The notes beneath the pieces were generated by a model that was not told the origin of the DNA, ran no database searches, and was given only the letters and a program-made list of their open reading frames with translations. Shown here one piece after another: positions 1,622-35,835 of a DNA stretch of 35,835 bases. The stretch comes from Alcanivoracaceae bacterium. GTDB taxonomy: Bacteria; Pseudomonadota; Gammaproteobacteria; Pseudomonadales; Alcanivoracaceae. Where the stretch lies: positions 82,831-118,665 of the forward strand of contig PAJO01000026.1 of the NCBI GenBank assembly GCA_002706085.1, in the 5' to 3' direction. The position numbers were made by a program, and so were the translations under genes. Positions within the stretch are counted from its first letter, which is position 1. Each line of letters starts with the position of its first letter.

Positions 1622-1701
1622 GTCGGACGTCTGAAGTCGGAGGTCTGACGCGGTAGAACAGAACGGTTTTCGCGTCTGACGTCAGACATCCGGCGTCAGA
1701 C
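1622..1701. repeat. Two four-unit GTCNGAC heptanucleotide modules between ftsA and ftsZ
   Basis: In the 221-base ftsA-ftsZ spacer, four consecutive 7-mers run from 1622 to 1649 (GTCGGAC, GTCTGAA, GTCGGAG, GTCTGAC). Four more run from 1674 to 1701 (GTCTGAC, GTCAGAC, ATCCGGC, GTCAGAC). The first two units of the second module form a perfect 14-bp palindrome, GTCTGACGTCAGAC. The same second-module order recurs at 22454-22481. No gene is seen in the spacer. The ftsZ ribosome-binding site (GGGAG, 1792-1796) lies beyond the repeats, so the array probably sits in the ftsZ leader or between separate transcripts. Confidence 0.8.
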
Positions 1702-1802
1702 CTGATGAGCGCAAGCGGCGGTTCCGGGCCGCGGTAACACCACCGGAACATTCGACGTGACGTTATGAAGTAAACAGGGAAGCAACAAACGGGAGATCAA
1801 CC

Positions 1803-2969
1803 ATGCAATTCAAACTGGAAGACAGCGTGCCCCATGGCGCGGTAATCAAAGTGGTAGGTGTCGGTGGTGGCGGCGGTAATGCCGTGGACCACATGGTGCG
1901 CTCCGGTGTTGAGGGGGTGGATTTCATCTGCGCCAACACCGATGCACAGGCCCTGCGTAATGCTCAAGCCAAGACCGTGATTCAGCTGGGAAGCCAGGTG
2001 ACCAAGGGTCTGGGTGCGGGTGCTAACCCCGAAATCGGTCGTCAGTCTGCGCTGGAAGACCGCGATCGCATTGCCGAACTGCTGGACGGTGCCGATATGG
2101 TCTTTGTGACCGCTGGCATGGGCGGCGGTACGGGTACCGGTGCCGCTCCGGTCGTGGCGGAAATCGCCAAGGAGCTGGGTATCCTCACCGTGGCGGTTGT
2201 GACCAAGCCGTTCCCCTTCGAAGGCAAGAAGCGCATGCGCTCTGCGCAGGAAGGGATCGAGGAGCTCAAGGAGCATGTTCACTCCCTGATCACCATCCCC
2301 AACGAAAAACTGCAGTCTGTTCTGGGTGGTTCCACCAGCCTGCTGGATGCCTTCAAGGCGGCCAACGACGTACTCCAGGGTGCGGTGAAAGGGATTGCCG
2401 ATCTGATCGTGCGTCCGGGGATGATCAACGTGGATTTCGCCGACGTTCGCACAGTAATGAGCGAGCTGGGTACGGCGATGATGGGCTCCGGTACCGCCAG
2501 TGGCGAGGAACGTGCAGCCGATGCAGCCCGTGCGGCCATTTCCAGCCCGCTGCTGGAAGATGTGGACCTGCGCGGCGCCCGTGGCATTCTGGTCAACATC
2601 ACCGCTAACGAATCCATCGCGCTGGACGAGTTCTCTGAAGTGGGCGAGATCGTTAGTGAGCTGGCCGGTGAAGATGCCAACGTGATCATCGGTACCGCGA
2701 TCGACCCGGATATGGGCGATAACATCAGTGTGACTGTCGTCGCCACCGGTCTGGGTGCTGCCCAGCAGGAACTAAAAGTGGTGCGTGGCCGTCAGACCCC
2801 TGTCGCCGCTGATGGTCGGGTGGACTACAGTGATCTGGATCGTCCCGCTGTGGAGCGCAAACGCGCCGCTCAGCAGGCAGCCAGCGGGCGTGGCCAGCAG
2901 GCGGTAAACACCGCGGAAGATCTGGATTTCATTGATATTCCGACCTTCCTGCGTCGTCAGGCCGACTAA
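1803..2969 (+). CDS. ftsZ: Cell division protein FtsZ
   Basis: This is the tubulin-like GTPase that assembles the cytokinetic Z ring at midcell. The 388-residue length is typical. The N-terminal nucleotide-binding glycine loop ([14 protein letters not shown]) starts near residue 18, and the tubulin signature [16 protein letters not shown] lies near residue 106. A variable linker rich in Gln, Arg and Ala follows about residue 325. The C-terminal conserved peptide [11 protein letters not shown], which binds FtsA, ZipA and other partners, closes the protein. The ATG is preceded by GGGAG at 1792-1796. It lies downstream of ftsA on the same strand, but the 221-base spacer with heptad repeats is longer than usual, so extra promoter activity there is possible though not demonstrated. 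Confidence 0.98.
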
Positions 2970-2982
2970 CGGTCTGGCGGCA

Positions 2983-3013
2983 TTGGTGCAAAATCAGGGA
3001 GTTGCAGTATAAT
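2983..3013 (+). promoter_or_regulatory. Candidate sigma-70 promoter for lpxC
   Basis: A perfect -10 hexamer TATAAT (3008-3013) lies 65 bases before the lpxC ATG. TTGGTG (2983-2988) is the best -35 candidate, with a long 19-base spacer. It falls in the ftsZ-lpxC gap, where lpxC is often separately transcribed in gammaproteobacteria. The -10 is convincing and the -35 is weak. Confidence 0.5.
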
Positions 3014-3078
3014 TGCGCCCTAATTTTGTGTTGAGGAAAGCGGTATCCCGAGGATACCCGCAGCTGTGTGACAGACAG

Positions 3079-3993
3079 ATGATCAGACAACGAACACTGA
3101 AAAACGTGATCCGCGCGACTGGCGTGGGCCTTCACACCGGCGAAAAGGTTTATATGACCGTGCGCCCGGCACCGGTAGACACCGGTATCGTGTTCCGGCG
3201 TGTGGACCTGGAGCCGGTGGTGGAGATCAAGGCCGCCGCCGATGCGGTGGGCGAAACCACTCTCTCATCCACCCTGGTTCAGGATGGCGTGAAAGTCGGT
3301 ACTGTGGAGCATTTCCTGTCCGCCATGGCGGGCCTGGGCATTGATAATGCCTTTGTGGAACTCTCCGCACCGGAAATGCCGATCATGGATGGCAGTGCCG
3401 GTCCGTTCGTCTTCCTGCTGCAGTCAGCCGGTATCAAGGAACAGGAAGCCGCCAAGAAGTTTATCCGCATCAAGAAGGAAGTGACGGTGCGGGAAGGGGA
3501 CAAAACGGCAACGTTCGTGCCCTTTGATGGCTTCAAGGTGACTTTCTCCATCGAATTCGATCACCCGGTATTTGAAGACCGAAACCAGGTGTCCAGCATC
3601 GATTTCTCCACGACCTCGTTCGTGAAAGAAGTGGCGCGGGCCCGAACGTTCGGTTTCATGCGGGATATCGAGTTCCTGCGCAGCCAGAACCTGGCGCTGG
3701 GCGGCAGCGTAGACAACGCGATTGTGGTGGATGAATACCGGATCCTTAACGAGGACGGCCTGCGTTACGAGGACGAATTCGTCAAGCACAAGATGCTGGA
3801 TGCCATTGGCGATCTGTATCTGCTGGGGCACAGCCTGATTGGCGAGTTCATTGGTCACAAGTCCGGCCATGCCCTCAACAACGCGCTACTGCGGGAAATT
3901 CTCCGTCAGGAGGACTCCTATGAGGTGGTCACTTTCGAAGATGCCACCGACGCACCTGTCTCTTACATGCGACCGGTGCTGGCAGCCGAATAA
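3079..3993 (+). CDS. lpxC: UDP-3-O-acyl-N-acetylglucosamine deacetylase LpxC
   Basis: This cytosolic zinc amidase catalyses the first committed step of lipid A synthesis. The ATG at 3079 gives 304 residues starting [19 protein letters not shown], the conserved family N-terminus. An in-frame TTG 66 bases earlier would add 22 residues unlike the family and overlaps the -10 element. Zinc-site residues are visible: His78 in the VEHF motif and the HxxxD-type segment [21 protein letters not shown] near residues 228-248. The gene is the last plus-strand member before a convergent dciA, and a weak hairpin follows its stop. In enterobacteria LpxC level is set by proteolysis; nothing in this sequence addresses that. 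Confidence 0.97.
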
Positions 3994-4018
3994 GGCCGCC
4001 ACACGTCGAAGCCCTGTG

Positions 4019-4050
4019 ACCAGCCGGCGGTTCTCCCGCCGCTGGCTGGT
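4019..4050 (+). terminator. Imperfect hairpin after lpxC
   Basis: ACCAGC (4019-4024) pairs with GCTGGT (4045-4050), and CGGCGG (4025-4030) with CCGCCG (4036-4041), leaving a 3-base bulge. No T-tract follows, so intrinsic termination is uncertain. The rest of the 200-base gap to dciA shows no gene. Confidence 0.3.
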
Positions 4051-4194
4051 ACCCTTCGGGCCTCTCTCCGGTATGTCGGAGGTTCTTTACCCGCAACGAC
4101 GGGAGCGCGATTTCAGCGCATCGACCCTCACCATTTACACGGTGACAGCATTTTTCAAACGGACGTGAGCCTGGATCGCGAGTTTAATGGCGGT

Positions 4195-4647
4195 TTATTC
4201 GCTTTCTCCGCGGCTGGCCAGGCGCTCCAGTGATGCCTTTAGGCCGTCATCCTCGATATTGTCAGCCAAAGCCTGAATGTGCCGGGCACTTTCCTGGCTA
4301 AGCTTGGGTATGTTGGCACGCGCCTTGCCTGCATAAGCGTTGGCAGAAAGCCCTGGCTGACGTTTGCCACCCACGACGATCTTTACCTGTTCGCCGGGTA
4401 GTGCCTGCTGGAGTCGGGGCAGATGGAAACGCAACAGCTGGGCGGTAGCGCTGGTTTCCACCAGCGCTAGCCAGCGTTGTTGATCCCGGATCAGCGTCAC
4501 CCGCTCGCGCAGGGCGGGGGGCAGGCAATCGAGCGGGTTTTGCTCGGCCTGGGAGGGTGACTTTCTTGCCTCTCGCATCAGTGCTGACAGGGTGGCGTTA
4601 CCGCTGAGCAGTGAGAGGAGGGCTTTGGGCGAAGTTGTCTTGCTCAT
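4195..4647 (-). CDS. dciA: DciA-like (DUF721) DnaB helicase loader
   Basis: This is a 150-residue protein with the DUF721/DciA look: a short N-terminal helix region, then LPPALRERVTLIRDQQRWLALVETSATAQLLRFHLPRLQQAL, which resembles the family's KH-like fold where the nascent domain contacts DnaB. DciA proteins load the replicative helicase in bacteria lacking DnaC or DnaI. The C-terminal third (after about residue 95) is low-complexity and probably disordered. Position is supportive: from memory, a DUF721 gene lies between lpxC and secA in pseudomonads. It is convergent with lpxC and divergent from the M23 peptidase gene. The start is ATG at 4645-4647. The family call rests on pattern similarity and context. 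Confidence 0.75.
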   Translation of the reverse strand: MSKTTSPKALLSLLSGNATLSALMREARKSPSQAEQNPLDCLPPALRERVTLIRDQQRWLALVETSATAQLLRFHLPRLQQALPGEQVKIVVGGKRQPGLSANAYAGKARANIPKLSQESARHIQALADNIEDDGLKASLERLASRGESE

Positions 4648-4759
4648 GGCTTTTACTTAGACTAGCCTGCCAATTGTAAAAAAGATTATAAAGAGTTGGG
4701 CGTAACTATTTGAATTTAGTCGAAATAAGCGGCTTTTTACCGGTGCGTTACACGAATTT
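4648..4759. promoter_or_regulatory. AT-rich divergent spacer, presumed promoters for dciA and the M23 gene
   Basis: This 112-base gap between two divergent genes is clearly more AT-rich than its surroundings. It contains runs such as TTGTAAAAAAGATTATAAAG near 4674-4693, where a TTGTAA and a TATAAA can be seen, though not at ideal spacing. No start site can be fixed by eye. Confidence 0.3.
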
Positions 4760-5692
4760 ATGAATATCATAGTCCTTAACAGCAAGCGCGGCCATTCGCG
4801 TACCCTGCCTGTCCCCCGCCATTGGCCGTGGATGTTGGCTGGGGTGTTTCTGCTGTTACCGGTACTGGTGGCAGTGGGCACTTACCAACTCATCTATCAT
4901 GTCAGCGATCAGCCCGAATTCACCCCGGTGATGACCGAGCGTTTTGCCGAACAGCTCCATGAGCAACAGCTCGCGCTGGCGGATCTGGATCAGCTGAGTC
5001 AGGAGCAGTTTCGCGCCCTGACCCTGAAACTGGCCCAGGCCCAGGCGCGGCTGGTGCGTCTCGATGCGCTGGGCGAGCGGCTTGTAGAAGTGGCCGATGT
5101 GGGCAGCGACGAGTTCGATTTCAGTACCATCCCCGGGCTGGGTGGTCCGGAGTCTGCGGATGAAGGTGCCAGCTATGAGCTGCCTTCCTTTATGGAAGCT
5201 GTGGACCAGATGACGGCCACGCTGGAGCGTCGCGAACGTCAGTTGGAGATCCTGGAAGATCTGCTCGCCGACAAGCAGATTGAGGACCAGACCTGGTTGT
5301 CCGGGCGCCCGCTCAGTAAAGGCTGGATGTCGAGCCGCTTCGGCCGCCGCTCTGATCCGTTCACAGGCCGTGTGGCTTGGCACAAAGGGGTAGACTTTGC
5401 CGGTAAGGAAGGCACGCCGATCATCGCGACGGGTTCCGGGGTGGTGACTTTCTCCGGAGAGCGCTCAGGCTATGGCAAGCTCGTTGAAATCAACCATGGC
5501 AACGGGATTACGACTCGCTATGGACATGCGGTCGAGTTGCTGGTCGAGTCTGGTGACATTGTCAGAACCGGCGATACCATTGCCAAAGTCGGTAATTCCG
5601 GACGCTCTACTGGGCCACATGTGCATTATGAAGTGCTGAAAAACGGTGCCCAGGTGAATCCGCAACCCTACATTTACCGTGCAAGACGCTGA
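4760..5692 (+). CDS. Inner-membrane-anchored M23 (LytM-type) peptidase
   Basis: This 310-residue protein likely acts in the periplasm on peptidoglycan cross-links or regulates amidases. One membrane anchor is visible (about residues 23-47). A coiled-coil-prone region follows (about 58-112 and 143-175), and then a C-terminal LytM domain (about 190-305). The M23 zinc ligands are intact: His208 and Asp212 in the HKGVDFAG motif and His289 in HVHYEV, with His256 (RYGH) and His287 also present. An active enzyme is therefore more likely than a degenerate EnvC/NlpD-type activator. It sits just upstream of secA, with a strong terminator between them. From memory, pseudomonads carry a similar gene at this place; I assign no symbol. 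Confidence 0.88.
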   Translation: MNIIVLNSKRGHSRTLPVPRHWPWMLAGVFLLLPVLVAVGTYQLIYHVSDQPEFTPVMTERFAEQLHEQQLALADLDQLSQEQFRALTLKLAQAQARLVRLDALGERLVEVADVGSDEFDFSTIPGLGGPESADEGASYELPSFMEAVDQMTATLERRERQLEILEDLLADKQIEDQTWLSGRPLSKGWMSSRFGRRSDPFTGRVAWHKGVDFAGKEGTPIIATGSGVVTFSGERSGYGKLVEINHGNGITTRYGHAVELLVESGDIVRTGDTIAKVGNSGRSTGPHVHYEVLKNGAQVNPQPYIYRARR

Positions 5693-5702
5693 AACGACTG
5701 CG

Positions 5703-5729
5703 AAAACGGCCCCATCGGGGCCGTTTTTT
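5703..5729 (+). terminator. Intrinsic terminator after the M23 peptidase gene
   Basis: A perfect 7-bp GC stem CGGCCCC/GGGGCCG (5707-5713, 5717-5723) with an ATC loop is followed by six T residues and preceded by an A-run. It lies 10 bases after the stop codon, so secA is transcribed separately. Confidence 0.92.
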
Positions 5730-5840
5730 GTTGGCAGACCTTGATAACCGTGAATACCACCTTATCTCTCCAAACTATTGTGTTTAGAATGGCTCACCTT
5801 GTGGGTTTCTTTGCCTGAGTCCGTATCGCGCTCGTCTGCT

Positions 5841-5860
5841 GGAGCCATGCTTGCATGGCG
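5841..5860. repeat. Short REP-like hairpin (GCCATG-CTTG-CATGGC) upstream of secA
   Basis: GGAGCCATGCTTGCATGGCG contains a 6-bp stem (5844-5849 with 5854-5859) around a CTTG loop. The same core forms each arm of the 55-bp inverted repeat at 12193-12247. It lies 68 bases before the secA start, within its leader or promoter region. Confidence 0.65.
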
Positions 5861-5927
5861 AATCTTTCCGGCGGCTTTTTCCGGGACGTGACTTTGTGGC
5901 CTGACTGTTTACTGAATCGGACGTTTT

Positions 5928-8648
5928 ATGCTGGGTACCATCGTAAAAAAAATTATCGGCACCAAGAATGATCGCGAACTCAAGCGCATGGCGAAGCTGG
6001 TGGAAGCGATCAACAGTCATGGGGAGGCGTTGGCAAACCTGACCGACGGCGAGTTACAGCACAAAACGACGGAATTCCGTGACGCCTTCCAGCAAGGCAG
6101 GACCCTGGACGAGTTGCTGCCGGAAGCGTTTGCGGTGGTCCGTGAGGCATCGACCCGGGTCATGGGCATGCGTCACTTTGATGTACAGATGATGGGGGGG
6201 ATCTCCCTCCATGAAGGGCGTATTTCCGAAATGCGCACCGGTGAGGGTAAAACCCTGACTGCCACCCTGCCAGCGTATCTGAACGCCTTGTCCGGTGACG
6301 GGGTTCATGTGGTGACGGTGAATGATTACCTCGCCGAGCGGGATGCTAACTGGATGCGTCCTCTCTATGAGTTTTTGGGCCTGTCGGTAGGGGTGATCCT
6401 GTCCCAGCAGCCCTCCGAGCAGAAGCGTGCGGCCTACGGTTCGGATATTACCTACGGCACCAACAACGAATACGGGTTCGATTACCTGCGTGACAATATG
6501 GCTTTCCGGCTGGAAGACCGGGTTCAGCGTGGGTTGAATTACGCCATTGTCGATGAGGTGGATTCCATTCTTATTGATGAAGCGCGTACTCCGCTGATCA
6601 TCTCCGGCCCGGCGTCGGATTCCTCCGAGCTGTACATGGCCATCAACAAGTTGATGCCAAACCTGAAAGGGCAGACCGAGGAAGACGAAGGCGATTATTT
6701 CGTCGATGAGAAACAGCGGCAGGTGGAACTGACCGAAGATGGGCATCAGAAGATCGAAGCCCTGTTGGTCAGCAATGGCCTTTTGGAAGAAGGCGAGAGC
6801 CTTTACGCAGCCCATAATCTGGCCCTGCTGCACCATGTGCATGCGGCACTGAAAGCCCATGCCTTGTTCCATGTCGACCGGGACTACATCGTTCAGGGCG
6901 GCCAGATTGTGATTGTGGACGAGCATACAGGCCGTACCATGCCAGGCCGCCGCTGGTCAGAGGGTATTCATCAGGCGATCGAAGCCAAGGAAGGGGTAAA
7001 CATTCAGCAGGAAAACCAGACGCTGGCGTCCACCACCTTCCAGAACTACTTCCGTTTGTATAACAAGCTGGGCGGCATGACCGGTACGGCAGATACCGAA
7101 GCGCTGGAATTCCGCCAGATTTACGGCATGGATGTGGTGGTTATCCCCACCAACAAGCCGATGGTGCGGGTGGATGCCAATGACCTGGTGTATCTGAGCC
7201 TGCAGGAAAAATTCGACGCCATCGTTGAGGAGATCAAAACGGCGGTAGAGAAAGGTGCACCAGTGCTGGTGGGCACTGCCACGATTGAGGCCTCGGAGTA
7301 TCTCTCCAAGCGGCTCAAGCAGGACAAGATTCATCACGAAGTTCTTAACGCCAAGTTCCACCAGCGTGAAGCCCAGATTATTGCCCAGGCGGGCCGCCCT
7401 GGTGCGGTGACGATCGCCACCAACATGGCTGGCCGGGGTACCGACATCATGCTTGGGGGCAACCCGGAAGAGCAGATCAAGCACATGGATGAGCCGTCCG
7501 AGTCCCAGGCTGAAAAGATCCGTGCAGAGTGGCAGGCCAACCATGACAAGGTGATGGAAGCAGGTGGTCTGCACATCATTGGCACCGAGCGTCATGAATC
7601 CCGCCGTATCGATAATCAGCTGCGCGGGCGTGCTGGCCGTCAGGGTGATCCGGGTTACACCCGTTTCTTCCTGTCCATGGAAGATGACCTGATGCGTATC
7701 TTCGCCTCGGACCGCATCCGCGGCATGATGCGTTCGCTGGGCCTGGAAAACGGTGAAGCCATTGAGCACCGCTGGGTGACGCGTGCAATCGAAAATGCGC
7801 AGCGTAAAGTGGAAGGTCGCAACTTTGACATCCGCAAAAATCTGCTGGAATACGACGATGTGGCCAACGATCAGCGTCAGGTTATTTACAGCCAGCGTGA
7901 CCAGATTCTCGAGACGGATGACCTGACCAACTCCGTGAAAGGCATCCGTTACGATGTGGTTCAGGAAGTGGTGCACAATTATATGGCGCCGGGCTCCGTG
8001 GAGGATCAGTGGGACATCCCTGGTCTCGAAAAAATGCTCGAAGCCGAATTCCAGAGTCATGCACCGGTCGGCCAATGGTTGAATGAGGACAACCAGCTCC
8101 ATATCGATGGGGTGGTCGAGAAGCTGGTGGAGAATCTGGAAGAGGACTATGAACGTAAAGCGGCGGAGATCGGCGTCGAGGACTTGCGTCGTATCGAAAA
8201 GCATCTAATGCTGCAGATTCTGGATCGGCACTGGAAAGAACATCTGGCCAGCATGGATCACTTGCGTCAGGGGATTCATTTGCGCGGTTACGCCCAGAAG
8301 AATCCCAAGCAGGAGTACAAGAAAGAAGCGTTTGAGCTCTTCCAGACCCTGCTAAACCAGATTCAGCACGAGCTGATTCGCGTGTTACACAGTTTCCAGG
8401 TGCGCCGTGATGATGAGCTGGAACGTATGGAGCAGCAGCGCCAGGAAGAGGCCCAGCGTCAGGCAGAAAAAATGAAAATGCAGGCGGTGGCCGAGCCGGG
8501 TACTGATGGAACGGCCGGGGCCGCGGGTGAGGGCGAGGCCCAGCAACCCAAAACCGTCGTCCGTGACGGTCGCAAGGTAGGTCGTAACGAGCCGTGCCCC
8601 TGCGGGTCTGGCAAGAAATACAAGCAGTGTCACGGCAGGATTGAATAA
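5928..8648 (+). CDS. secA: Preprotein translocase ATPase SecA
   Basis: This is the motor ATPase that drives unfolded preproteins through SecYEG. The 906-residue length is normal. The Walker A motif RTGEGKT lies near residue 103. The DEAD-type Walker [22 protein letters not shown] starts near residue 207, and helicase motifs [12 protein letters not shown] and [13 protein letters not shown] mark the second nucleotide-binding fold. The C-terminal tail carries a Gln/Glu-rich linker, then the zinc-binding, SecB-contacting motif [17 protein letters not shown]. The start matches the family ([19 protein letters not shown]). No secM-like gene precedes it; the upstream 235 bases hold only a terminator and a REP-like hairpin, so the E. 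coli SecM arrest mechanism is not seen here. A terminator bracketed by heptad repeats follows. Confidence 0.98.
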
Positions 8649-8651
8649 ATC

Positions 8652-8679
8652 AGCTTCGAGCTATGAGCTTTCAGCTGTG
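8652..8679. repeat. Four AGCTNNN heptads immediately after secA
   Basis: Starting four bases past the secA stop are AGCTTCG, AGCTATG, AGCTTTC and AGCTGTG. The AGCT core and the 7-base period are exact, while the other three positions differ in every unit. The array ends just before the secA terminator. Confidence 0.8.
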
Positions 8680-8688
8680 AGTAAAGAC

Positions 8689-8715
8689 AAAAGCACCGGT
8701 AATGCCGGTGCTTTT
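8689..8715 (+). terminator. Intrinsic terminator of secA
   Basis: A perfect 11-bp stem AAAAGCACCGG/CCGGTGCTTTT (8689-8699, 8705-8715) with a 5-base loop is followed by more T-rich sequence. It separates secA from argJ and can read in both directions because of its A/T arms. Confidence 0.92.
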
Positions 8716-8732
8716 CTTTGTTTTGGTCTGGC

Positions 8733-8760
8733 AGCTGGAGGCTGGTAGCTCGCAGCTGTT
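8733..8760. repeat. Four AGCT-type heptads between the secA terminator and argJ
   Basis: AGCTGGA, GGCTGGT, AGCTCGC and AGCTGTT occur in strict 7-base phase. One unit has a changed core (GGCT). With 8652-8679 this brackets the secA terminator by similar modules on both sides. Confidence 0.65.
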
Positions 8761-8777
8761 TTTTTGAGGAAAGGGTT

Positions 8778-10118: not shown

Positions 10119-11060
10119 ATGAGCATTGAACCTACCCCCGCCATTACCGTTGTTGCCGCCATTATCCGTGGCGAAGATGGGCGTATCTGTCTCAGCAAGC
10201 GTCCGGACCACAAGCATCAGGGCGGCCGCTGGGAATTCCCGGGTGGCAAAGTGGAGCCGGGGGAGCGGCTTGATGAGGCGTTGGCTCGTGAGCTCTATGA
10301 GGAGCTGGGCATGGCGTCGTCCCTCTCTTCTCCTTTTATGACCATTGCGCATCAGTACCCTGATTTGCACGTGACCCTGCATTTTAGGGATGTGACCGGG
10401 TGGCGAGGAGTGCCCACGGGCAAGGAAGGGCAGCAAGTTGCCTGGTTTGCCTTGAGTGACCTGGCAGATCTGTCGTTTCCGGCGGCTAACCAGCCAGTGG
10501 TGACGGCAATTTTGCTCCCCCCGTGCCTTGCCATTGTGCCCGATACTATTGAGCTGAATACGTTGCTGACAGGTATCGAGCGTCTGGACAGTATGCAAAC
10601 CGGCCTCTATTTGCGCGGCTGGAGTCAGCATCCTGCCCGCGAGCGCATTCTGGAGACCTGTCGTCGTGCCGGGGTGCGCGTCTGGTTGCGGGCAGATTCT
10701 CCCCTCGGTATGGCAGGGGGAATGCCGGAGGGTGTGTTCGGTCTGCATCTGCCGGCCAGTGTGCTGATGGATTGCTCCCGCCGTCCCGATTTTTCCGGTG
10801 TGGTCTCGGCGGCTTGCCATGATCAGCAGGCGCTGGATAAAGCGGTCAGCCTGGGTCTGGATAGCGCACTGATTTCACCCGTTAACCCGACAACCACTCA
10901 TCCAGACCAGCCCGCTCTGGGCTGGGAGAGAGCGGGCCAATGGGCCTCCGGGTTACCCCTTGCCTGCTACATGCTGGGAGGGGTGGGGCCGGAGGACATC
11001 TGCCTTGCCCGTGAGCATGGCGCAGTGGGCGTCGCAGGCATCCGCGCCTTTTGGAGTTAA
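10119..11060 (+). CDS. mutT: MutT-like Nudix hydrolase fused to a thiamine-phosphate-synthase-like domain
   Basis: The N-terminal Nudix domain (about residues 6-130) has a perfect Nudix box at 43-65, GKVEPGERLDEALARELYEELGM, as in 8-oxo-dGTP pyrophosphatases that clean the nucleotide pool. The C-terminal half (about 140-313) resembles a TenI/thiamine-phosphate synthase barrel (GVFGLHLPAS, SAACHDQQALDKA, YMLGGVGPED, GVAGIRAFW). From memory this fusion is common in pseudomonads and the second domain's role is unclear. The start is the ATG at 10119; a longer in-frame version would be coded by REP-like DNA. The ribosome-binding site is weak. The stop codon lies inside the first unit of a heptad repeat array. 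The gene converges on yacG. The symbol reflects domain and synteny; the exact substrate is not shown. Confidence 0.88.
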   Translation: MSIEPTPAITVVAAIIRGEDGRICLSKRPDHKHQGGRWEFPGGKVEPGERLDEALARELYEELGMASSLSSPFMTIAHQYPDLHVTLHFRDVTGWRGVPTGKEGQQVAWFALSDLADLSFPAANQPVVTAILLPPCLAIVPDTIELNTLLTGIERLDSMQTGLYLRGWSQHPARERILETCRRAGVRVWLRADSPLGMAGGMPEGVFGLHLPASVLMDCSRRPDFSGVVSAACHDQQALDKAVSLGLDSALISPVNPTTTHPDQPALGWERAGQWASGLPLACYMLGGVGPEDICLAREHGAVGVAGIRAFWS

Positions 11061-11089
11061 CAGTTAACAGTGAATAGTTAACAGTGTCG
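11055..11089. repeat. AGTTAAC heptad array overlapping the mutT stop codon
   Basis: AGTTAAC, AGTTAAC, AGTGAAT, AGTTAAC and AGTGTCG are in strict 7-base phase. The first unit contains the last codon and TAA stop of mutT. The third unit is the divergent one, as in the GTCNGAC modules. The core GTTAAC is palindromic. Confidence 0.75.
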
Positions 11090-11116
11090 CGATAAGCGAC
11101 TGGTTGTGACTTCAGT

Positions 11117-11155
11117 GCATGAGGCCGCGCCCGGATTCCGGGAGCGGCCTCATGC
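11117..11155. terminator. Strong hairpin between convergent mutT and yacG
   Basis: A perfect 12-bp stem GCATGAGGCCGC/GCGGCCTCATGC (11117-11128, 11144-11155) encloses a second short stem CCCGG/CCGGG. There is no T-tract on either side. Its place between convergent genes suggests a bidirectional end-of-transcript structure. Confidence 0.55.
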
Positions 11156-11212
11156 GCTTAAAAACAAGGAAAAACCCGAAAAACTTTACAGGGTATGCTG
11201 CTCGCGCAGCCT

Positions 11213-11401
11213 TCACTGTTCCTCGAAATCCATCCCGGGAGCTTCCGGGTCACCTGGGATGGCATGTCGCTCTGACGCCCAGTCCCCCAAATCAATGAGT
11301 TTGCAGCGTTCGCTGCAGAATGGCCGCCAGGGGTTGTTATCAAAGCGGGTCAGGCTTTTGCATTGCGGACAGGGATAGGTGCGGGTGGTGTTGTCGGACA
11401 T
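11213..11401 (-). CDS. yacG: DNA gyrase inhibitor YacG (zinc-binding)
   Basis: A 62-residue protein with the YacG four-cysteine zinc site: CPQC near residues 11-14 and CSERC near 29-33. It continues into the family sequence [17 protein letters not shown] and ends in an acidic tail. In E. coli YacG binds GyrB and inhibits gyrase. From memory it sits beside coaE in E. coli and pseudomonads, as here, where it lies downstream of coaE on the same strand. No zapD/yacF gene is found between them; the 156-base gap holds only repeats. Confidence 0.94.
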
Positions 11402-11408
11402 AAAGATC

Positions 11409-11480
11409 AGTTGACAGTTGATAGTGGACAGCGAAAGGCTGGATCTTAACGTCTTTGACGTCAGGCGTCAGGCGTCAGCA
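11409..11480. repeat. Two heptad modules (AGTTGAC type and GTCAGGC type) between yacG and coaE
   Basis: From 11409 come AGTTGAC, AGTTGAT and AGTGGAC, decaying after 11429. From 11453 come CTTTGAC, GTCAGGC, GTCAGGC and GTCAGCA. Two different heptad families therefore stand within 75 bases in one intergenic gap. Confidence 0.65.
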
Positions 11481-16507: not shown

Positions 16508-17008
16508 ATGAAGAAGCAAATGCAACAGGGTTTCACCCTTATCGAACTGATGATCGTGGTTGCCATCATCGGTATTCTGGCTGCCGTAGCGATTCCGCAG
16601 TACCAGAACTATGTAGCCAAATCCCAGGTTAGTCGCGTGATGCAGGAGACTGGTGCTCTCAAAACTGTGATTGAGACTTGTCTGCTGAATGGCCAGACTG
16701 CTGCGGGTGAGTGTGAGCTTGGCTGGACTAACAGCAACTTGATTGGTGCTACTTATAACCCTCAAACCAACCTCACTGTTACCATTGCGGAGGATGCTAC
16801 TTCTGATTCCAGTATCGCCGCTACTTTTGGTGATACTGCGGCAGCAGCCATTGCCTCCCAGACTCTGACTTGGACTCGTACCGGTGCTGGGGTATGGTCT
16901 TGTACTACTAGTGTAGAAGTTAAGTATCAGCCGACTGGCTGTGGCTCTGCCGGTGGTTCTGACGGTGGTTCTGACGGTGGTTCTGACGGTGGTTCTGACG
17001 CAGGCTAA
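16508..17008 (+). CDS. pilA: Type IV major pilin PilA with a repetitive Gly-Gly-Ser-Asp tail
   Basis: This 166-residue prepilin forms the type IV pilus fibre. The short leader MKKQMQQG precedes the cleavage site Gly8/Phe9. The canonical hydrophobic helix [27 protein letters not shown] follows in two parts, with Glu13 (mature Glu5). Two disulfide pairs are likely: Cys58-Cys69 and Cys132-Cys145, the latter closing the C-terminal D-loop ([16 protein letters not shown]). Unusually, 21 residues extend past that last cysteine, mostly four copies of Gly-Gly-Ser-Asp (149-164) ending Ala-Gly. ATG 16508 has GGAG upstream and an appropriate leader. The gene is divergent from pilB and followed by a strong terminator. 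The tail may be surface-exposed and, being Ser-rich, a modification target; that is inference. Confidence 0.95.
16952..16999 (+). repeat. Four perfect 12-bp tandem repeats in the 3' end of pilA
   Basis: GGTGGTTCTGAC occurs four times without a single mismatch, in frame, coding Gly-Gly-Ser-Asp each time. Perfect identity, including wobble bases, suggests recent expansion. Gain or loss of a unit keeps the reading frame, so tail length can vary. Confidence 0.97.
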
Positions 17009-22370: not shown

Positions 22371-22481
22371 TGGTAGCGGTGGTTTCACCGCGAAGAGCGC
22401 CAAGCGTATCGTGGTCGAACGACCACTCCCACAGGAGCGAGGGGCGATTTAGCGTCGGACGTCCGACTTCAGGCGTCCGAC
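22371..22481. repeat. REP doublet plus four-unit GTCNGAC heptad module, upstream of nadC
   Basis: Hairpins GCGGTG-GTTT-CACCGC (22376-22391) and GTGGTCG-AA-CGACCAC (22411-22426) form a doublet related to 21252-21315. Immediately beyond, 22454-22481 reads GTCGGAC, GTCCGAC, TTCAGGC, GTCCGAC. This is the same four-unit order as 1674-1701, with a perfect 14-bp palindrome at its start. Confidence 0.8.
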
Positions 22482-22492
22482 GGGGCCTGCTC

Positions 22493-27730: not shown

Positions 27731-27800
27731 CTTTGGTCGCATGGTGGAGCAGTGACGCTCGCGCTAGTCTAACGCCATGAAAACTGATGCTTTTCGTCAT

Positions 27801-27831: not shown

Positions 27832-27932
27832 TGACAACGAGTGATCCGCTCGGCCCAGACACCCTTGGGTTTTTTGCGGTTTTGCAGTGATCCTGCAAGG
27901 CCGCCTGGCTACGCGAAAAAGGACGCACGCCC

Positions 27933-30605: not shown

Positions 30606-30610
30606 AAACA

Positions 30611-30731
30611 GCCCTCTCCCTGTCCCTCTCCCGCAAGCGGGAGAGGGGACCTTTCAGTAAGGCAAGGGACATGCCTTCAGGTTGGTTTGCTCCCCTCTCC
30701 CACTTGTGGGAGAGGGGCTGGGGGAGAGGGC
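30611..30731. repeat. REPIN-like doublet of CCCTCTCCC/GGGAGAGGG repeats between aceE and the DUF559 gene
   Basis: The first copy (30611-30650) contains an 11-bp stem CCCTCTCCCGC/GCGGGAGAGGG (30624-30634, 30637-30647). The second (30690-30731) is the same repeat in opposite orientation, with a 12-bp stem CCCCTCTCCCAC/GTGGGAGAGGGG (30692-30703, 30706-30717). Head-to-head copies about 40 bases apart mimic REPINs. The doublet begins six bases past the aceE stop. Confidence 0.92.
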
Positions 30732-30759
30732 GCTTTTCATTCGATCAAGGACGATTGCA

Positions 30760-31191
30760 ATGGAAGAAACAAAACGGAAGCAAGGGGCTTCCCGTTCTTT
30801 AACAGCACGAGCACGAGATTTACGAAGCCGGCAAACAGAAGCCGAGCAAAGGCTCTGGTATCACCTGCGTGCAGGCCGCTTTATGGGAATCAAGTTCAAG
30901 AGACAAAAACCCATAGGCAATTACATCGTAGATTTTGTGTCGTCTTCGCATCGCTTGATCATCGAACTGGATGGAGGTCAGCATGCGGAGCAGCAGGAGT
31001 ACGATCGTCGCAGGGATGCTTGGTTACGCTCCCAGGGCTACGAGGTCGTACGTTTCTGGAATCATCAGGTACTGACTGAGACCCAGTCAGTACTGGAAGC
31101 GGTTCGGCAGACAATTCAGGCGCTGTCGACTGTTTCCTCTGACTCCGTTCCCCCATGCGGGAAGGGAGAAATAACCAGTAAGGGTTCGTGA
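30760..31191 (+). CDS. DUF559 (Vsr/PD-(D/E)xK-like) endonuclease-domain protein inserted in the pdh operon
   Basis: A 143-residue protein with the full DUF559 pattern: [45 protein letters not shown], then an aspartate-rich stretch and [13 protein letters not shown]. Asp58, Glu69, Asp71 and His75 are candidates for a Vsr-like nuclease centre. The family is predicted to cleave DNA, but its biological role is not established. The start is ATG 30760 with AAGGA at 30748-30752; a longer frame would translate the upstream palindrome. The last 19 or so residues are coded by what looks like a decayed repeat copy, so the gene is flanked by the same repeat at both ends. It ends one base before aceF and keeps operon orientation. 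Transfer together with its repeat is likely. Confidence 0.88.
31148..31168. repeat. Decayed palindrome at the DUF559 3' end
   Basis: TTCCC (31148-31152) and GGGAA (31159-31163), followed by GGGAG, resemble a degraded copy of the CCCTCTCCC-type repeat. It lies inside the last codons of the DUF559 gene, about 25 bases before aceF. Similarity is suggestive only. Confidence 0.4.
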
Positions 31192-31192
31192 T

Positions 31193-32854
31193 ATGGCTAA
31201 AAGCATGATTCAGGTTCCCGATGTGGGCAGCAGTGATCCTGTTGACGTCATCGAGATCAGCGTAAAAGTCGGCGATACCATCGCTGCGGAAGATACCATT
31301 GTGGTGCTGGAATCCGACAAGGCCACAGTGGAAGTCCCGGCTCCGAAAGCCGGCAAGGTCACTGCCATCAACGTGAAGGTGGGGGACCGGGTCAAGGAAG
31401 GGGATGACCTGCTGGAGGTCGAGGCCGATTCAGGGGCGGACGACAACGCCCCGTCGCAGGAAGAAGCAACAACTGACACGCCAACCGAGCAGGAAACCGC
31501 TCCTCAGGCAGAGACTGAGGAGGCACCAGCCAGGTCAGCCAGCCGCACGGAATCGCGCACGGAAACCGTGACGGTGCCGGACCTGGGTGATATCGATGGT
31601 GCCGAGATCATCGAAGTGAGTGTGGCGGCAGGGGATGTGCTGGAGGCCGAGCAGGTGATCGCGGTGCTGGAATCCGACAAGGCATCGCTGGAAATCCCGG
31701 CGCCCCAGGCGGGCACCGTGGAGTCCGTGATCATCAAGGTGGGTGACAAGGTCAGTACCGGTGATCCCTTGCTGACGCTGGCGGTATCCGGTGGTGATGT
31801 GGCGCCCGAGGCGAAAGAAAACACCGCAATGTCGTCTGCTTCTGTATCGCAGACCAGTGCCTCCGATAAACAGGAACAGAACAAGCAGGAGCAGGCCAAA
31901 CCCGCGCAGACCTCCACCGCTATTCCCGCAGCGGCAAACTCTCCCGGCAAGGCGGTTCATGCCGGGCCGGCGGTGCGCAAGCTGGCCCGGGAAATGGGCG
32001 TGGATCTGGGGCAGGTTCCGGGAACAGGTCCCAAGGACCGTATCCTCAAAGAGGATGTGCATGCCTGGGTCAAACAGCGTCTGGAATCACAGAGCGCGCA
32101 GGCAACCGGCAGTGGTGGAATGTCGCTGGATCTGCCGGACATCGATTTCAGCCAGTTTGGGGATGTCGAGCGCGAAGAGCTGAACAAATTGCGCAAGGTG
32201 TCTGCCCAGAATCTGCACCGCTCCTGGTTGACCATTCCCCATGTGACCCAGCATGACAATGCGGATATCACTGACCTGGAAGCCTTCCGCAAGCAGCAGA
32301 ACAAGGCGCTGGAACGGGAAGGCGTCAAGCTCACCATGCTGGCGTTTCTGGTGGCCGCTTGTGCCAAGGCGCTGAAGGAGTTTCCACGCTTCAATAGTTC
32401 TCTTGAGAACAGTGGCGAAGCCCTGATTCACAAGCACTACATCAACATCGGTATTGCGGTGGATACCCCCAATGGTCTGGTGGTGCCGGTGATCAAGGAT
32501 GCGGACAAGAAAACCCTGAAAGAAATCGCCCAAGAAATGGGCGAGCTGGCGGAGAAGGCGCGCAATCGCAAACTGACCCCGGCGGACATGAAGGGAGGTA
32601 CGTTCAGTATCTCGTCGCTGGGCGGTATTGGTGGCACGGCGTTTACGCCCATTGTGAACTGGCCTGAAGTGGCCATCCTCGGGGTGAGCCGTTCGGACAT
32701 GCAACCGGTGTGGGATGGCAATCAGTTTGTCCCGCGGCTGACCTTGCCGTTGAGTTTGTCCTATGACCACCGTGTCATTGATGGGGCAGATGCGGCACGG
32801 TTTACCACTTATCTGAGCCAGTTGTTGTCAGATATGCGGCGGGTGTTGTTGTAG
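31193..32854 (+). CDS. aceF: Pyruvate dehydrogenase E2, dihydrolipoyl acetyltransferase AceF
   Basis: This core subunit of the pyruvate dehydrogenase complex carries acetyl groups from AceE to CoA. It has 553 residues. Two lipoyl domains are visible, with modified lysines Lys43 and Lys163, each in an ESDKA motif, separated by a Glu/Ala/Thr-rich swinging linker. The peripheral-subunit-binding domain lies around 258-293 ([20 protein letters not shown]). The catalytic domain follows, ending in the signature [12 protein letters not shown] with His526 and the DG pair near 530. E. coli has three lipoyl domains and pseudomonads two. The ribosome-binding site AAGGG is at 31180-31184. No lpd follows; a long hairpin ends the unit. 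Confidence 0.97.
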
Positions 32855-32861
32855 GGGTACC

Positions 32862-32907
32862 CCCAGAACGAAGAAAGCCGGCAAGCGCCGGCTTTCTTCG
32901 TTCTGGG
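32862..32907 (+). terminator. Perfect 21-bp hairpin terminator after aceF
   Basis: Bases 32862-32882 are exactly complementary to 32887-32907 around an AAGC loop. The inner part (AAAGCCGGC/GCCGGCTTT followed by CTTC) looks like an ordinary terminator; the outer 12 bp extend it. It starts 7 bases past the stop. Confidence 0.85.
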
Positions 32908-32910
32908 CGG

Positions 32911-32987
32911 GTCTGACGTCGGGCGACAAACCCGTCACCTCAAATTGATCCTTAAAGCTTTTCAGGTTTTAGCGTCAGACGTCCGAC
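32911..32987. repeat. Two short GTCNGAC heptad pairs between aceF and the spy-like gene
   Basis: GTCTGAC-GTCGGGC (32911-32924) and GTCAGAC-GTCCGAC (32974-32987) are two-unit versions of the heptad family. The second is a near-palindrome, 14 bp with one mismatched pair. Confidence 0.65.
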
Positions 32988-32996
32988 CACACCCTG

Positions 32997-33329
32997 TTAC
33001 TCACCGCGCTTCTCTCGTTTCTCCTTGCGCTTGTCCTTGCGATCCTCCATGCGGTCTTTACGCTTTTCCTTCATCTCCGCCATTTTTTCCTGCTGTTCGG
33101 GGGTCAGGATAGCGTTGATCTTTTCCTGGGTTTCATCGTGCAAGGCTTTCATTTTTTCACCCTGCTCATCGAACACGGCTTGCAGTTGCGTACTTTGCGC
33201 TTCGCTCAGTTCCAGCTTCTTGGTCATGTGCTCAACCATGCGTTCGCCACCCCGGTGATCCGGGCCATAAGCAAACGCGGTGCCAGCGATAGCGAAAACA
33301 GCAACAGCAACGATAGCGATTTTTTTCAT
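32997..33329 (-). CDS. spy: Spy/CpxP-like periplasmic chaperone
   Basis: A 110-residue secreted protein. The signal peptide ends AGTAFA (cleavage about 20/21). The mature part is strongly helical, with LTxxQ-type motifs: LELSEAQSTQL near 38-48 and ILTPEQQEKM near 74-83. Its end is extremely rich in Lys, Arg and Glu. Spy and CpxP are small ATP-independent chaperones that stop aggregation in the periplasm under envelope stress. In E. coli spy is a BaeR and CpxR target, and here a BaeSR-like pair is coded directly upstream on the same strand, supporting a functional link. AAGGAG precedes the ATG. The exact family (Spy vs CpxP) cannot be decided by eye. Confidence 0.78.
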   Translation of the reverse strand: MKKIAIVAVAVFAIAGTAFAYGPDHRGGERMVEHMTKKLELSEAQSTQLQAVFDEQGEKMKALHDETQEKINAILTPEQQEKMAEMKEKRKDRMEDRKDKRKEKREKRGE

Positions 33330-33434
33330 GGTGCTCTCCTTCTGGACATGAGTCCCTGTGTTTTGATGGAGTCAGTATCACTGTAAAGATTGCAAGGAAT
33401 ATGCAGGGAATGTGGAAGCGGAGGAGCAGGGGCG

Positions 33435-33573
33435 AGCTTCTAGCTTCTAGCTACGAGAAAAGATAAAAGAAACAGGCAGTTTGAGCTTGCCTATGGGGTT
33501 AACTACCGTCTTAAACTGAAAGCTCGAAGCTCGAAGCTCGAAGCTCGAAGCTCGAAGCTCGAAGCTCGAAGCT
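33435..33573. repeat. AGCTNNN heptad arrays between spy-like gene and baeR
   Basis: 33435-33455 reads AGCTTCT, AGCTTCT, AGCTACG. Then 33521-33569 holds seven identical AGCTCGA units, followed by AGCT. The second array ends five bases from the baeR stop codon on the minus strand. The rest of the 249-base gap (33330-33578) shows no gene. Confidence 0.95.
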
Positions 33574-33578
33574 GGCCT

Positions 33579-34253
33579 TTATGGCGTTTCCAGCCGGTAG
33601 CCCACCCCGTACACACTGCCGATCCAGTCGTGGGCATCGGGGCTGTGTTCGGTGAGTTTTTTGCGCAGTTTGCGGATGTGGCTGTCGATGGTGCGGTCGG
33701 ATACCACGCGATGATCATTGTAGATTTCATCCATCAACTGGTCCCGGGACCAGATGCGGCCGGGGTGGCGTGCCAGGGTGTTGAGCAACGCAAATTCGAT
33801 GGCGGTAAGGGCGATGGACTGGCCGGCAATGCGCGCTTCAAAACGGTCGTCATCCAACACCAGTGCGGGTTGTGCTTCTTCTGCCGGTTGCGGGTTGGCG
33901 CGGCGCAGCACGGCTTTCACCCGGGCTACTACCTCGCGGGGGCTGAAGGGTTTGCAGATATAGTCGTCGGCACCCAATTCCAGCCCCAGCAGCCGGTCCA
34001 CCTCGTCCACTCGTGCGGTAATCATCAGGATGGGGACCTGGCTGTGCTGGCGGATGGATTTGCACACGTCCATGCCATCGCCATCGGGCAGCATCAGATC
34101 GAGCAAAATGGCATCAAAGCCACCGTCCCGTGCCAGTGCCATGGCGGTTTGAGCACTGTCGGTCTGCTCGGTGTCGTAGCGGGCGTGTTGCAGGTAGTCG
34201 GCCACCAGCTGGGACAGGCGAGGTTCGTCTTCCACGATCAGGATACGGCTCAT
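33579..34253 (-). CDS. baeR: BaeR-like OmpR-family response regulator
   Basis: A 224-residue two-domain regulator. The receiver domain (1-118) has the acidic pocket IVEDEPRLSQL, phospho-acceptor Asp52 (ILLDLMLPDGDGM) and GADDYICKPFSPREVVARVKAVLRR, which closely recalls E. coli BaeR. A linker leads to a winged-helix OmpR-type DNA-binding domain (about 128-222; LTAIEFALLNTLARHPGRIWSRDQL and VSDRTIDSHIRKLRKKL). It overlaps baeS by four bases. BaeR governs envelope-stress genes including spy and drug efflux in E. coli; the neighbouring Spy-like gene fits this. A heptad array of 7 copies lies just past its stop. Confidence 0.85.
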   Translation of the reverse strand: MSRILIVEDEPRLSQLVADYLQHARYDTEQTDSAQTAMALARDGGFDAILLDLMLPDGDGMDVCKSIRQHSQVPILMITARVDEVDRLLGLELGADDYICKPFSPREVVARVKAVLRRANPQPAEEAQPALVLDDDRFEARIAGQSIALTAIEFALLNTLARHPGRIWSRDQLMDEIYNDHRVVSDRTIDSHIRKLRKKLTEHSPDAHDWIGSVYGVGYRLETP

Positions 34254-35602
34254 ACGGACTCTCCCGGCAGGGTCAGGGTAATGCGTACACCGCCCAGGGG
34301 GCTGTGTTCAGCGCGGATACTGCCACCGTGGGCTTCGGCAATACGCTGGCAGATGGCCAGCCCCAGCCCGGCCCCGCCAGTGCGTCGGTTGCGCGAGCTT
34401 TCGACCCGGTAGAGGTGATCAAACAGATGGGGAAGGGAGGCGTCCGGGACGCCGGGGGCGCTGTCTTCCAGAATCAGGGTCCACTGTTTGCCGGTGCAAT
34501 CCAGGCTGACACGCAGTTGACCGCCGTCGTGGGTGTATTTGAGGCTGTTCTGCAGCAGGTTATCCAGCAGCTGGCGAATGCGTACCGGGTCCATCAATAG
34601 CCAGGCGGACTCCGGTAGCCAGCGGTCGACGGTGAATTGTTTCTCGTCGAACAGGTGTCGATAGCTGTCCAGCACGTCGCGAGTTAGTTGCGCCAGATCT
34701 TCCTCAACCAGCTGGTAGCGCAGGTTGCCGCCATCTGCCAGCGCTAGGTCGTGGAGGTCATTCACCAGATGGGTGAGCTGTCGCGTTTCGGTTTCCAGCG
34801 CCTTGATGGCGTCGAGCGTCAGTGGGCGAATGCCGTCGCTGAGGGCTTCCAGTTCCCCTTGCAGAATGGCCAGCGGGGTGCGCAGCTCGTGGGCAATGTC
34901 AGAGAACCAGCGCTGGCGGGCTTGCTGCCCTTGCTCAAGGCGCAGGGACAGCTGGTCGAGCTGGTGCCCCAGACGGCCCAGTTCGTCACGCCGTGGGCTG
35001 TTCAGACGGCCGCTGTAATCGCCTTCCTGCAGGGCTCGGGTGTGGTGGGTCAGGGCCAGAATCGGGGCGACCAGATGCCGGGCCAGCAACCAGGAGACCA
35101 GCAACGACAGTACGATCCCCACCGCGAGCATCCACAGGACAAACCGCAGTTGGCGCTCCAGAAAGCGGTCGTCCAGCTTGTCACGGATCGCCTCCTGATT
35201 AGGGTAGGTAAGATAGCCGGCCAGTTGATCGTTTGCCAGAATCGGAACCTCCAGCCGTAAGCGGGGCGGGGCAGGCGGGCCCATCAGCAGCGTTTTGTCG
35301 GTGTCGAGCAGTTGCAGGTGGCGGTGATCATCGTTTTTGCCGCGGTGACGGTCTTCGTCGCCCGCCAGCCGATACAAGCGCTTGAGGCGGCGGGGGTCTT
35401 CGAGCAGGAAGTCCCAGCTGCCTGTTTGCTGGTACAGGGTGCCCAGGTGTTCGGCGAGGCGTTCCACCTGTTCCTGCTGACGTTCGTCCAGGTAGGTATT
35501 GAGGCTGCGCACAAACGACAGGTAATAGAATCCGCTGGCCGCCAGGATCAGGACCAGAAAGGTGCCAAGAAAAATCAGGAACAACTTGTTGCGAATGCCC
35601 AT
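34250..35602 (-). CDS. baeS: BaeS-like sensor histidine kinase
   Basis: A 450-residue inner-membrane sensor kinase. Transmembrane segments lie near 7-29 and 155-175 with a periplasmic sensor loop of about 120 residues between. A HAMP linker (about 176-228) follows, then the phosphorylated His238 in SDIAHELRTPLAILQGELEAL. The ATPase domain has N-box NLLQNSLKYT, and G-boxes near EDSAPGVPDASL and GGAGLGLAI. This sequence, especially the H-box and the SRNRRTGGAGLGLAICQRI region, resembles E. coli BaeS, including its SAPGV segment. The gene is transcribed ahead of baeR and overlaps it by four bases (ATGA). Confidence 0.87.
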   Translation of the reverse strand: MGIRNKLFLIFLGTFLVLILAASGFYYLSFVRSLNTYLDERQQEQVERLAEHLGTLYQQTGSWDFLLEDPRRLKRLYRLAGDEDRHRGKNDDHRHLQLLDTDKTLLMGPPAPPRLRLEVPILANDQLAGYLTYPNQEAIRDKLDDRFLERQLRFVLWMLAVGIVLSLLVSWLLARHLVAPILALTHHTRALQEGDYSGRLNSPRRDELGRLGHQLDQLSLRLEQGQQARQRWFSDIAHELRTPLAILQGELEALSDGIRPLTLDAIKALETETRQLTHLVNDLHDLALADGGNLRYQLVEEDLAQLTRDVLDSYRHLFDEKQFTVDRWLPESAWLLMDPVRIRQLLDNLLQNSLKYTHDGGQLRVSLDCTGKQWTLILEDSAPGVPDASLPHLFDHLYRVESSRNRRTGGAGLGLAICQRIAEAHGGSIRAEHSPLGGVRITLTLPGESV

Positions 35603-35701
35603 GGCGACGGTTCAACGGTTTTGGAGCACCCAGTGTACCGCGCCGCCGTGGACGGGGGAGCATTTGCACAATGTTTTCATAAAGCGGGGATCATGACTGT
35701 G

Positions 35702-35835
35702 AGCTGTGAGCTGTGAGCTATGAGCTATGAGCTATGAGCTATGAGCTATGAGCTATGAGCTACAAGCTACAAGCTACAAGCTACAAGCTACAAGCTACAA
35801 GCTACAAGCTACAAGCTACAAGCTACAAGCTACAA
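35702..35835. repeat. Long AGCTNNN heptad array at the right end of the window
   Basis: Two AGCTGTG units, six AGCTATG units, and eleven AGCTACA units follow in unbroken 7-base phase; the array continues past the window. A degenerate unit (GACTGTG) lies just before it at 35695-35701. Units are uniform within blocks and change between blocks, which suggests separate expansion events. It lies about 100 bases upstream of baeS (the array is 5' of the minus-strand gene). Confidence 0.97.

Follow-up and report, generated by a model that had tools for sequence, protein, structure and literature searches.

The short tandem arrays with a seven-base period that lie between the genes of an Alcanivoracaceae bacterium mostly represent, with a probability that we put at roughly 70%, left and right arms of intergenic hairpins that form a dispersed, heptad-armed family, and the long arrays would be slippage expansions of an arm. 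The arrays were studied from a 35,835-bp stretch (hereafter the window; contig C26:82831-118665) of a draft genome of 3.78 Mb in 67 contigs (GCA_002706085.1; the source genome, G000), in which ftsA, ftsZ, secA and argJ, all named by Pfam, flank arrays. The FtsZ encoded in the window matched those of Alcanivorax sp. S6407 (L001) and Alloalcanivorax gelatiniphagus at 99% (best segment) and 94% identity, respectively. In what follows G001-G016 denote the other genomes of the genus and L-numbers denote sampled stretches or loci.

Inverted pairing and element anatomy

Pairing was scored in the source genome, G008, G006 and G016 on arrays of up to 60 bp free of N, with an inverted partner defined as a score of at least 12 within about 400 bp, a null in which each array was set into random flanks, and both arms of a pair allowed to count. 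A partner was found for 104 of the 188 short arrays, compared with 5 of 188 in the null, and the loop measured 85-126 bp in 63 of the 104. In one form of the element the loop measures about 100 bp and often contains a central palindrome GGCCGCGCCC-N-GGGCGCGGCC and, next to the arms, CGCG boxes; a second form has a shorter loop. The ends are terminal inverted repeats, as in a miniature inverted-repeat transposable element (MITE), and form inverted doublets that can fold as hairpins. Under seven-base slides the in-register arm match was the best in 51 of 67 cases, to which we give no weight since the register had been preselected as best.

The core palindrome was present in 17/17 genomes of the genus (source included), in 2/19 genomes of other genera of the family (once each) and in 0/21 genomes of other families, these kinship groups being counted by hand. 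A profile search for the core (nhmmer) over 1.23 Mb gave 35 places with about seven arm unit types, assigned by loose motif rules. The arm motif stood on both sides at 18 of these places, on one side at 13 and on neither at 4, and two places carried unlike arms; no scored array lay beside the five cores of G016. The initial annotation had attributed the common period to a generator with a seven-base step, such as a polymerase or recombinase, or to a common reader protein; a polymerase-footprint version of the generator idea is already in print (cited by PMC4692102). That a bare generator of this kind explains the arrays is not supported. Over half of the short arrays pair and one core bears different arm units, so that a common element design accompanies the common period.

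Of 59 loops, 22 held a terminator-like hairpin; among 300 intergenic segments free of arrays, 32 did. A search of Rfam at gathering score gave no match in the window and just a tRNA in four element-rich loci, and a known RNA family was thus not obtained as the identity of the elements in the searched sequence.

Arm complementarity at secA-argJ

At secA-argJ a nested hairpin could be aligned in 16 of the 17 genomes of the genus (G005 was not aligned), and the letters of its arms vary among these 16 while the arms stay largely complementary. The outer stem was paired in 78.6% of cells and the inner 11-bp stem in 99.4%. Overall pairing reached 84.4% of cells compared with 82.2% after shuffling (0/500 shuffles as high) and 30-45% when the arms were slid by 1-3 columns, and the covariation score was 0.165 against 0.138 in shuffles (1/500), a small excess.

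Position relative to genes

The counts of gene position, unit diversity, terminators and dispersed copies were made on the source genome, G008 and G006, with G016 excluded and with genes called by a home-made open reading frame (ORF) scorer. The intergenic placement claimed in the initial annotation was borne out, as only 8 of 148 arrays lay inside called genes compared with 77-85% of random positions. So was the proximity to stop codons: the distance between array and stop codon had a first peak at about -17 to +14 (19/43 distances in the source genome and 15/40 in G006; for G008 the 60 smallest distances only were considered), and a second peak at about 100-140 corresponded to the far arm. 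After exclusion of 18/148 arrays at stretch ends, 122 placeable arrays were distributed over 44 convergent, 70 tandem and 8 divergent gaps. The 8 in divergent gaps compare with about 24 expected from the null fractions, and divergent gaps were below the null in all three genomes. Convergent gaps were above the null in the source genome (14/32; null 0.17) and in G008 (21/56; null 0.20).

Differences between species and dispersed copies

In the comparison of the source genome with G015, 31 of 38 array clusters were placed, with flanks 86-99% identical, and 7 were without a placed orthologue. The element was the same or nearly so at some sites (L085 7862, window 11055 and L097 11504); the arm at 11055 is identical in G015 and near-identical in G009 and G012. 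An element or repeat with other arms occupied five sites in G015 (L082 6490, L085 16565, L084 3600-3935, window 33435 and L081 15312). At L083 1957, 5518 and 15254, at L084 14458 and at ftsA-ftsZ, G015 had no array, but its sequence there differs and these are not clean empty sites. At four sites (L090 2363, L096 9723, L099 7373 and window 11408) the interval changed by exactly 7 or 14 bp. At the place of the vestigial arm of about 1.5 units at 11212..11221, L001 and G012, apparently one contig, carry TTCACTG x18. At the ftsA-ftsZ site, scored arrays were found in G002 and G013 (GTC-type) and in G007, G008, G012 and G014 (GCC-type) and no scored array in G001, G003, G005, G006, G009, G011, G015 and G016, with G004 and G010 outside the coverage.

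Dispersal was observed as further matches of at least 100 bp elsewhere for 8/20 elements in G006, 5/32 in G008 and 2/17 in the source genome, some of those in G008 and the source genome stemming from longer composite elements. Copies of the AGTKAAY element in G006 aligned over their full length at unlinked places, the listed ones with 74-81% identity. Two unlinked loci of the source genome, L082:2359-2647 and L090:12967-13247, share about 290 bp at 91% identity, made up of an AGCT array and the intergenic DNA beside it. The same heptad arrays recur about every 6 kb in G006 (L156, about 778, 7214 and 12986), suggesting tandem duplication of a larger segment. A separate dispersed repeat of about 150 bp (L084:9000-9150; C6 about 68-69 kb) has more than 15 matches of at least 120 bp in G015 outside the orthologous locus.

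Seven-base period and its range

The period was compared on 21 stretches of the source genome (427,123 b, about 11% of the genome) and on 400 kb of G008, 200 kb of G006 and 200 kb of G016, counting arrays with a score of at least 11; one order-1 shuffle of each source-genome stretch served as the control. The source genome gave 43 arrays at period 7 compared with 0, 8, 0 and 4 at periods 5, 6, 8 and 9, and 21 at period 14, a multiple of 7; the shuffled stretches gave no period-7 array. The counts at periods 7, 6, 8 and 9 were 67, 6, 1 and 7 in G008 and 38, 0, 0 and 5 in G006, and there was no period-7 contrast in G016 (2, 1, 0 and 4). The AGCTNNN x4 pattern had 226 matches across the source genome and the same pattern read backwards had 8 (overlapping matches counted singly). 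A chance origin of the arrays is ruled out by the period contrast, the shuffle and the backwards pattern. The initial annotation had tied its listed window sites to a common seven-base period, on the proviso that period 7 exceed periods 6, 8 and 9 and shuffled sequence: all the sites are present in heptads, the stronger ones being reported by Tandem Repeats Finder, and the excess held on the sampled 427 kb. Of 8 contig ends sampled in the draft, 6 fall within AGCTNNN arrays (C1 start; C6, C9 and C11 ends; both ends of C26), so long arrays are probably under-represented in the sample.

Each of the 16 other genus genomes contained the AGCTNNN x4 pattern, with between 1 and 583 matches; it was present in 6/19 family genomes of other genera and in 0/21 of other families. 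The corresponding figures, with the source counted in the genus, were 15/17, 2/19 and 0/21 for AGTKAAY x3 and 15/17, 4/19 and 0/21 for GTCNGAC x3. The backwards-read pattern TCGANNN is itself frequent in G004, G009 and G012 (116, 338 and 75), where it is another unit type. Among the genus genomes, G006, G008 and G012 are rich in such repeats, whereas G005 has few of the AGCT and AGTKAAY types and G016 few of any type. Since the unit patterns are common in the genus, sparse in the family and absent from the 21 genomes outside it, the period-7 class is centred on Alcanivorax. In other bacteria, 77 loci of the ftsZ region gave no general period-7 excess (20 arrays at period 7 against 119, 15 and 110 at periods 6, 8 and 9; score 9).

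Diversity and number of units

We obtained 39 distinct consensus units among the 148 arrays. The catalogued types are AGCTNNN, GTCNGAC, GCCNGAC, AGTKAAY, AGTTGAC, AGTTNAA, AATTGAT, AATTAAT and GCATCAC/GCGTGAT, and the commonest units, after rotation, are AACAGTT, AAAGTTG, AAGCTAC and AACAGTG. A mixed class with no single shared sequence, as described in the initial annotation, is therefore upheld by the 39 units, which at the same time reject its restriction to three fixed cores. Self-complementarity of the distinct units averaged 4.10 of 7, compared with 4.06 for letter-shuffled units and 3.47 for random genomic heptamers. Palindromic cores are thus no general trait, and a palindromic unit was rejected as the driver, the distinct units being no higher than their letter-shuffled control. 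The proposed size of about four units per array agrees with the data, four being the mode (71 of 150 arrays); in the window, the arrays at 33520-33573 and 35697-35835 are longer than this.

Arrays of the window

The window features are collected in Table 1. The pair at 32911-32987 is weak evidence alone, with two units per side. Elsewhere in the window a 12-bp unit GTGGTTCTGACG x5 (score 106) lies at 16941-17000 and overlaps ORFs on both strands.

Table 1 Heptad arrays and associated features in the window
Feature	Position	Strand	Evidence and remarks
Left arm of ftsA-ftsZ intergenic element, GTCNGAC-type, 4 units	1622..1649		Inverted partner at about 1674-1701 scores 15-16 (null: mean 7.8, maximum 15, of 40)
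Right arm of ftsA-ftsZ element	1674..1701		Heptad read-out, partner scoring
Left arm of secA-argJ element, AGCTNNN-type, 4 units	8652..8679		Heptads, partner scoring; SecA and ArgJ by Pfam
Intrinsic-terminator-like hairpin inside secA-argJ arms	8687..8720 (approximate)		Folded; 11-bp stem
Right arm of secA-argJ element	8733..8760		Heptads, partner scoring
Left arm, AGTKAAY-type	11055..11089	+	First unit includes TAA stop of upstream ORF (ends 11060)
Core with palindrome GAGGCCGCGCCC..GGAGCGGCCTC	11102..11175		nhmmer 38.0 bits
Vestigial right arm TTCACTGTTC, about 1.5 units	11212..11221	-	Partner score just 9, null maximum 9
AGTTGAC-type array, 3 units	11408..11431	+	Tandem Repeats Finder, heptads; no inverted partner above null
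GTCAGGC-type array	11453..11480		Heptads; G015 +1 unit; no inverted partner above null
Single GTCNGAC-type array	22453..22482		Tandem Repeats Finder; no partner in window (score 7)
Short GTCNGAC-type left array, 2 units	32911..32924		Partner score 8, within null
Short right array, 2 units	32974..32987		G015 orthologue 4 units (interval 14 bp longer)
Left arm, AGCTNNN-type, 3 units, upstream of 3' end of response-regulator ORF (minus strand)	33435..33455		Partner score 15-19; Pfam
Right arm, AGCTCGA, about 7.6-7.7 units	33520..33573		Heptads, partner scoring; G015: AGTTNAA-like element at site
Long AGCTNNN array, about 20 units	35697..35835		Cut by end of contig C26, which is the window end

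Proposed origin of the arrays and alternatives

We propose that a typical element at a gene end would consist of the stop codon followed by an arm of about four heptads (28-30 bp), a core and the inverted arm, the seven-base period being the step of the arms. The core is mostly about 100 bp long, often with CGCG boxes and a central palindrome; other cores are shorter, and some of either length hold a terminator-like hairpin. The elements have probably been copied around the genome in the manner of MITEs or of the hairpin-forming doublets (REPINs) of repetitive extragenic palindromes (REPs), and shared ancestry, perhaps together with pairing, would keep their arms alike. Single arms would then lengthen or shrink through seven-base slippage, a long uniform array being an expanded arm. 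At a given site the elements of different species can have unlike arms. Once transcribed, a complete element would fold as a long stem 3' of the coding sequence and may act as a terminator or 3'-end stabiliser, although termination is not general by the count of hairpins in loops.

Several results weigh against this proposal. No partner of score 12 was found for 84 of the 188 short arrays, and the window has just three strong pairs, with 6 of 13 tested arrays scoring at least 15 and null maxima of 9-19. The arm labels at the cores are loose motifs, and several labelled sides are without a scored array. By the rule used, 37 of 59 loops have no terminator, and a terminator-like hairpin was present in only 5 of 18 loops of up to 75 bp (17 of 41 longer ones); by this measure a terminator function would not be general to the elements. 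Convergent gaps were not over-represented in G006 (9/34; null 0.28). At secA-argJ, further pair types were not above the shuffles (184/500), the outer stem looks degraded in G014 and G016, and kinship among the genomes can inflate the pairing and covariation statistics. The arm match within elements was barely above that across elements of one class (20.7 vs 19.0, 23.5 vs 22.2 and 16.4 vs 14.0 in the main classes); the pairing may thus reflect common ancestry more than selection, and we rejected selection for a within-element match of the arms. The arms could be linked to no transposase, Y1_Tnp being the only transposase family searched.

Ordinary microsatellites, in which slippage has a preferred seven-base step and the placement at stop codons marks where such DNA is tolerated, are in our judgement an unlikely explanation. 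They would account for the exact 7- or 14-bp differences from G015, for TTCACTG x18 where the source genome has about 1.5 units, for the long uniform arrays, and for the AGCT arrays at the contig ends. However, from microsatellites one would expect neither inverted partners nor a mode at four units, neither a favoured loop length nor several arm types around one core. The 77 ftsZ-region loci of other bacteria show no period-7 excess, and as the sole cause microsatellites fail on the pairing result. It seems quite improbable that the arrays are bound by a regulator or nucleoid protein which reads the heptads cooperatively, in pairs that loop the DNA. Such binding sites would match the four- or five-unit opposite-strand pairs of Geobacter, filed as putative global regulator sites (PMC2700814), and the variant AGTGAAT, which arm alignment showed to be common as the third unit of the 5' AGTKAAY arm; yet 39 distinct units and different arms at one site ill suit one sequence-specific reader, and the first distance peak falls at stop codons. 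Standard REP/REPIN elements moved by REP-associated tyrosine transposases (RAYTs) are highly improbable: in their favour, the inverted doublets form hairpins, are intergenic and are dispersed, as in REPINs (PMC3116915), and the source genome has 7 Y1_Tnp matches, but no GTAG-tagged short palindrome was seen in the arms, and among the 7 Y1_Tnp loci (3.2-3.3 kb inspected) the core motif occurred in 0 and a single AGCT-like array in 2 (L185 and L186; pairing unscored there), so that RAYT mobilisation of the arms was rejected for want of a link at these loci.

REP-type palindromic repeats of another kind were noticed in the source genome. Motifs of GTAGGAGC occur in 4 of the 7 Y1_Tnp loci, and such repeats lie at L084:6330-6560, L181, L184, L185 and L186, some adjoining Y1_Tnp (RAYT-like) genes. 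Those of L084 lie within a heptad-armed element, and the G015 version of that element is without them.

Comparison with known repeats

Heptanucleotide tandem arrays include the short tandemly repeated repetitive (STRR) sequences of cyanobacteria, whose likeness to the Alcanivorax arrays is by description only. The initial annotation knew of no such description in gammaproteobacteria, which does not hold: heptamer arrays are in print for Xanthomonas (PMC4692102) and for Beggiatoaceae (PMC4679880). The GGGAATC heptamers of Xanthomonas have a four-unit majority, form close array pairs on opposite strands (70 in Xcc and 75 in Xac), are 89-93% intergenic at a mean of 28 nt from the 5' neighbouring ORF, and lie more often between convergent (16%) than between divergent genes (7-8%) (PMC4692102). 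The Alcanivorax arrays resemble them as tandem heptads with a four-unit mode, as inverted pairs and in lying between genes near the upstream ORF. They differ in that Xanthomonas has a single G-rich unit, discussed as quadruplex-forming, whereas the Alcanivorax units are many and mostly not G-rich; nor is a shared core with many arm types described for Xanthomonas in the portion available (PMC4692102). Among 369 genomes searched, G422 was the sole carrier of GGGAATC-type repeats. Six of its 7 such arrays are inverted pairs, with loops of 47, 75 and about 170 (in stretches chosen to include match positions), and its period 7 overall is not in excess (21 against 85 and 79 for periods 6 and 9).

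The Geobacter repeats are four or five tandem hepta- or octanucleotides, mostly in opposite-strand pairs; their layout is like that in Alcanivorax and their units differ, the comparison being by description only (PMC2700814). The TAACTGA repeats of Beggiatoaceae are intergenic, with two to six units (PMC4679880). The Alcanivorax AGTTAAC reads TAACTGT on the other strand, one base from TAACTGA, but the Beggiatoaceae repeats lie mostly upstream of start codons and are unpaired apart from one inverted repeat (PMC4679880). REPIN/REP doublets share the inverted doublet, the hairpin, the dispersal and the intergenic position (PMC3116915, PMC3733652); unlike them, the Alcanivorax arms showed no short palindrome tagged with GTAG/CGTC and no RAYT link was found. 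BrickBuilt of Porphyromonas likewise places tandem repeats within a MITE-like intergenic element, but with a 23-nt inner unit instead of heptads in both arms (PMC4596501). Publications on Alcanivorax with tandem repeats or repetitive extragenic palindromes, mostly non-subscription and judged by title and abstract opening, included none about such repeats. Within the literature searched, the design of many units around one core seems new, as does the occurrence in Alcanivorax of unlike elements at a given gene end.

Implications

A tentative and rather unlikely extension is that heptad-armed hairpins are one widespread, hitherto unrecognised class of small mobile DNA, present in Alcanivorax, xanthomonads and perhaps Geobacter, and copied by a putative enzyme that reads the four-step, seven-base geometry of the arms and not their letters. 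If so, a geometry-reading machinery could propagate elements with unrelated arms and swap them at the same gene ends. Apart from this extension, the proposed hairpins make one recognisable element design of what have been called heptamer microsatellites and account for a common period without a common sequence. Readings of the xanthomonad repeats by quadruplexes only are weakened, because units that are not G-rich occur in a comparable anatomy. A testable system is provided by close species in which the element at a given gene end has been swapped, is missing or differs by whole units.

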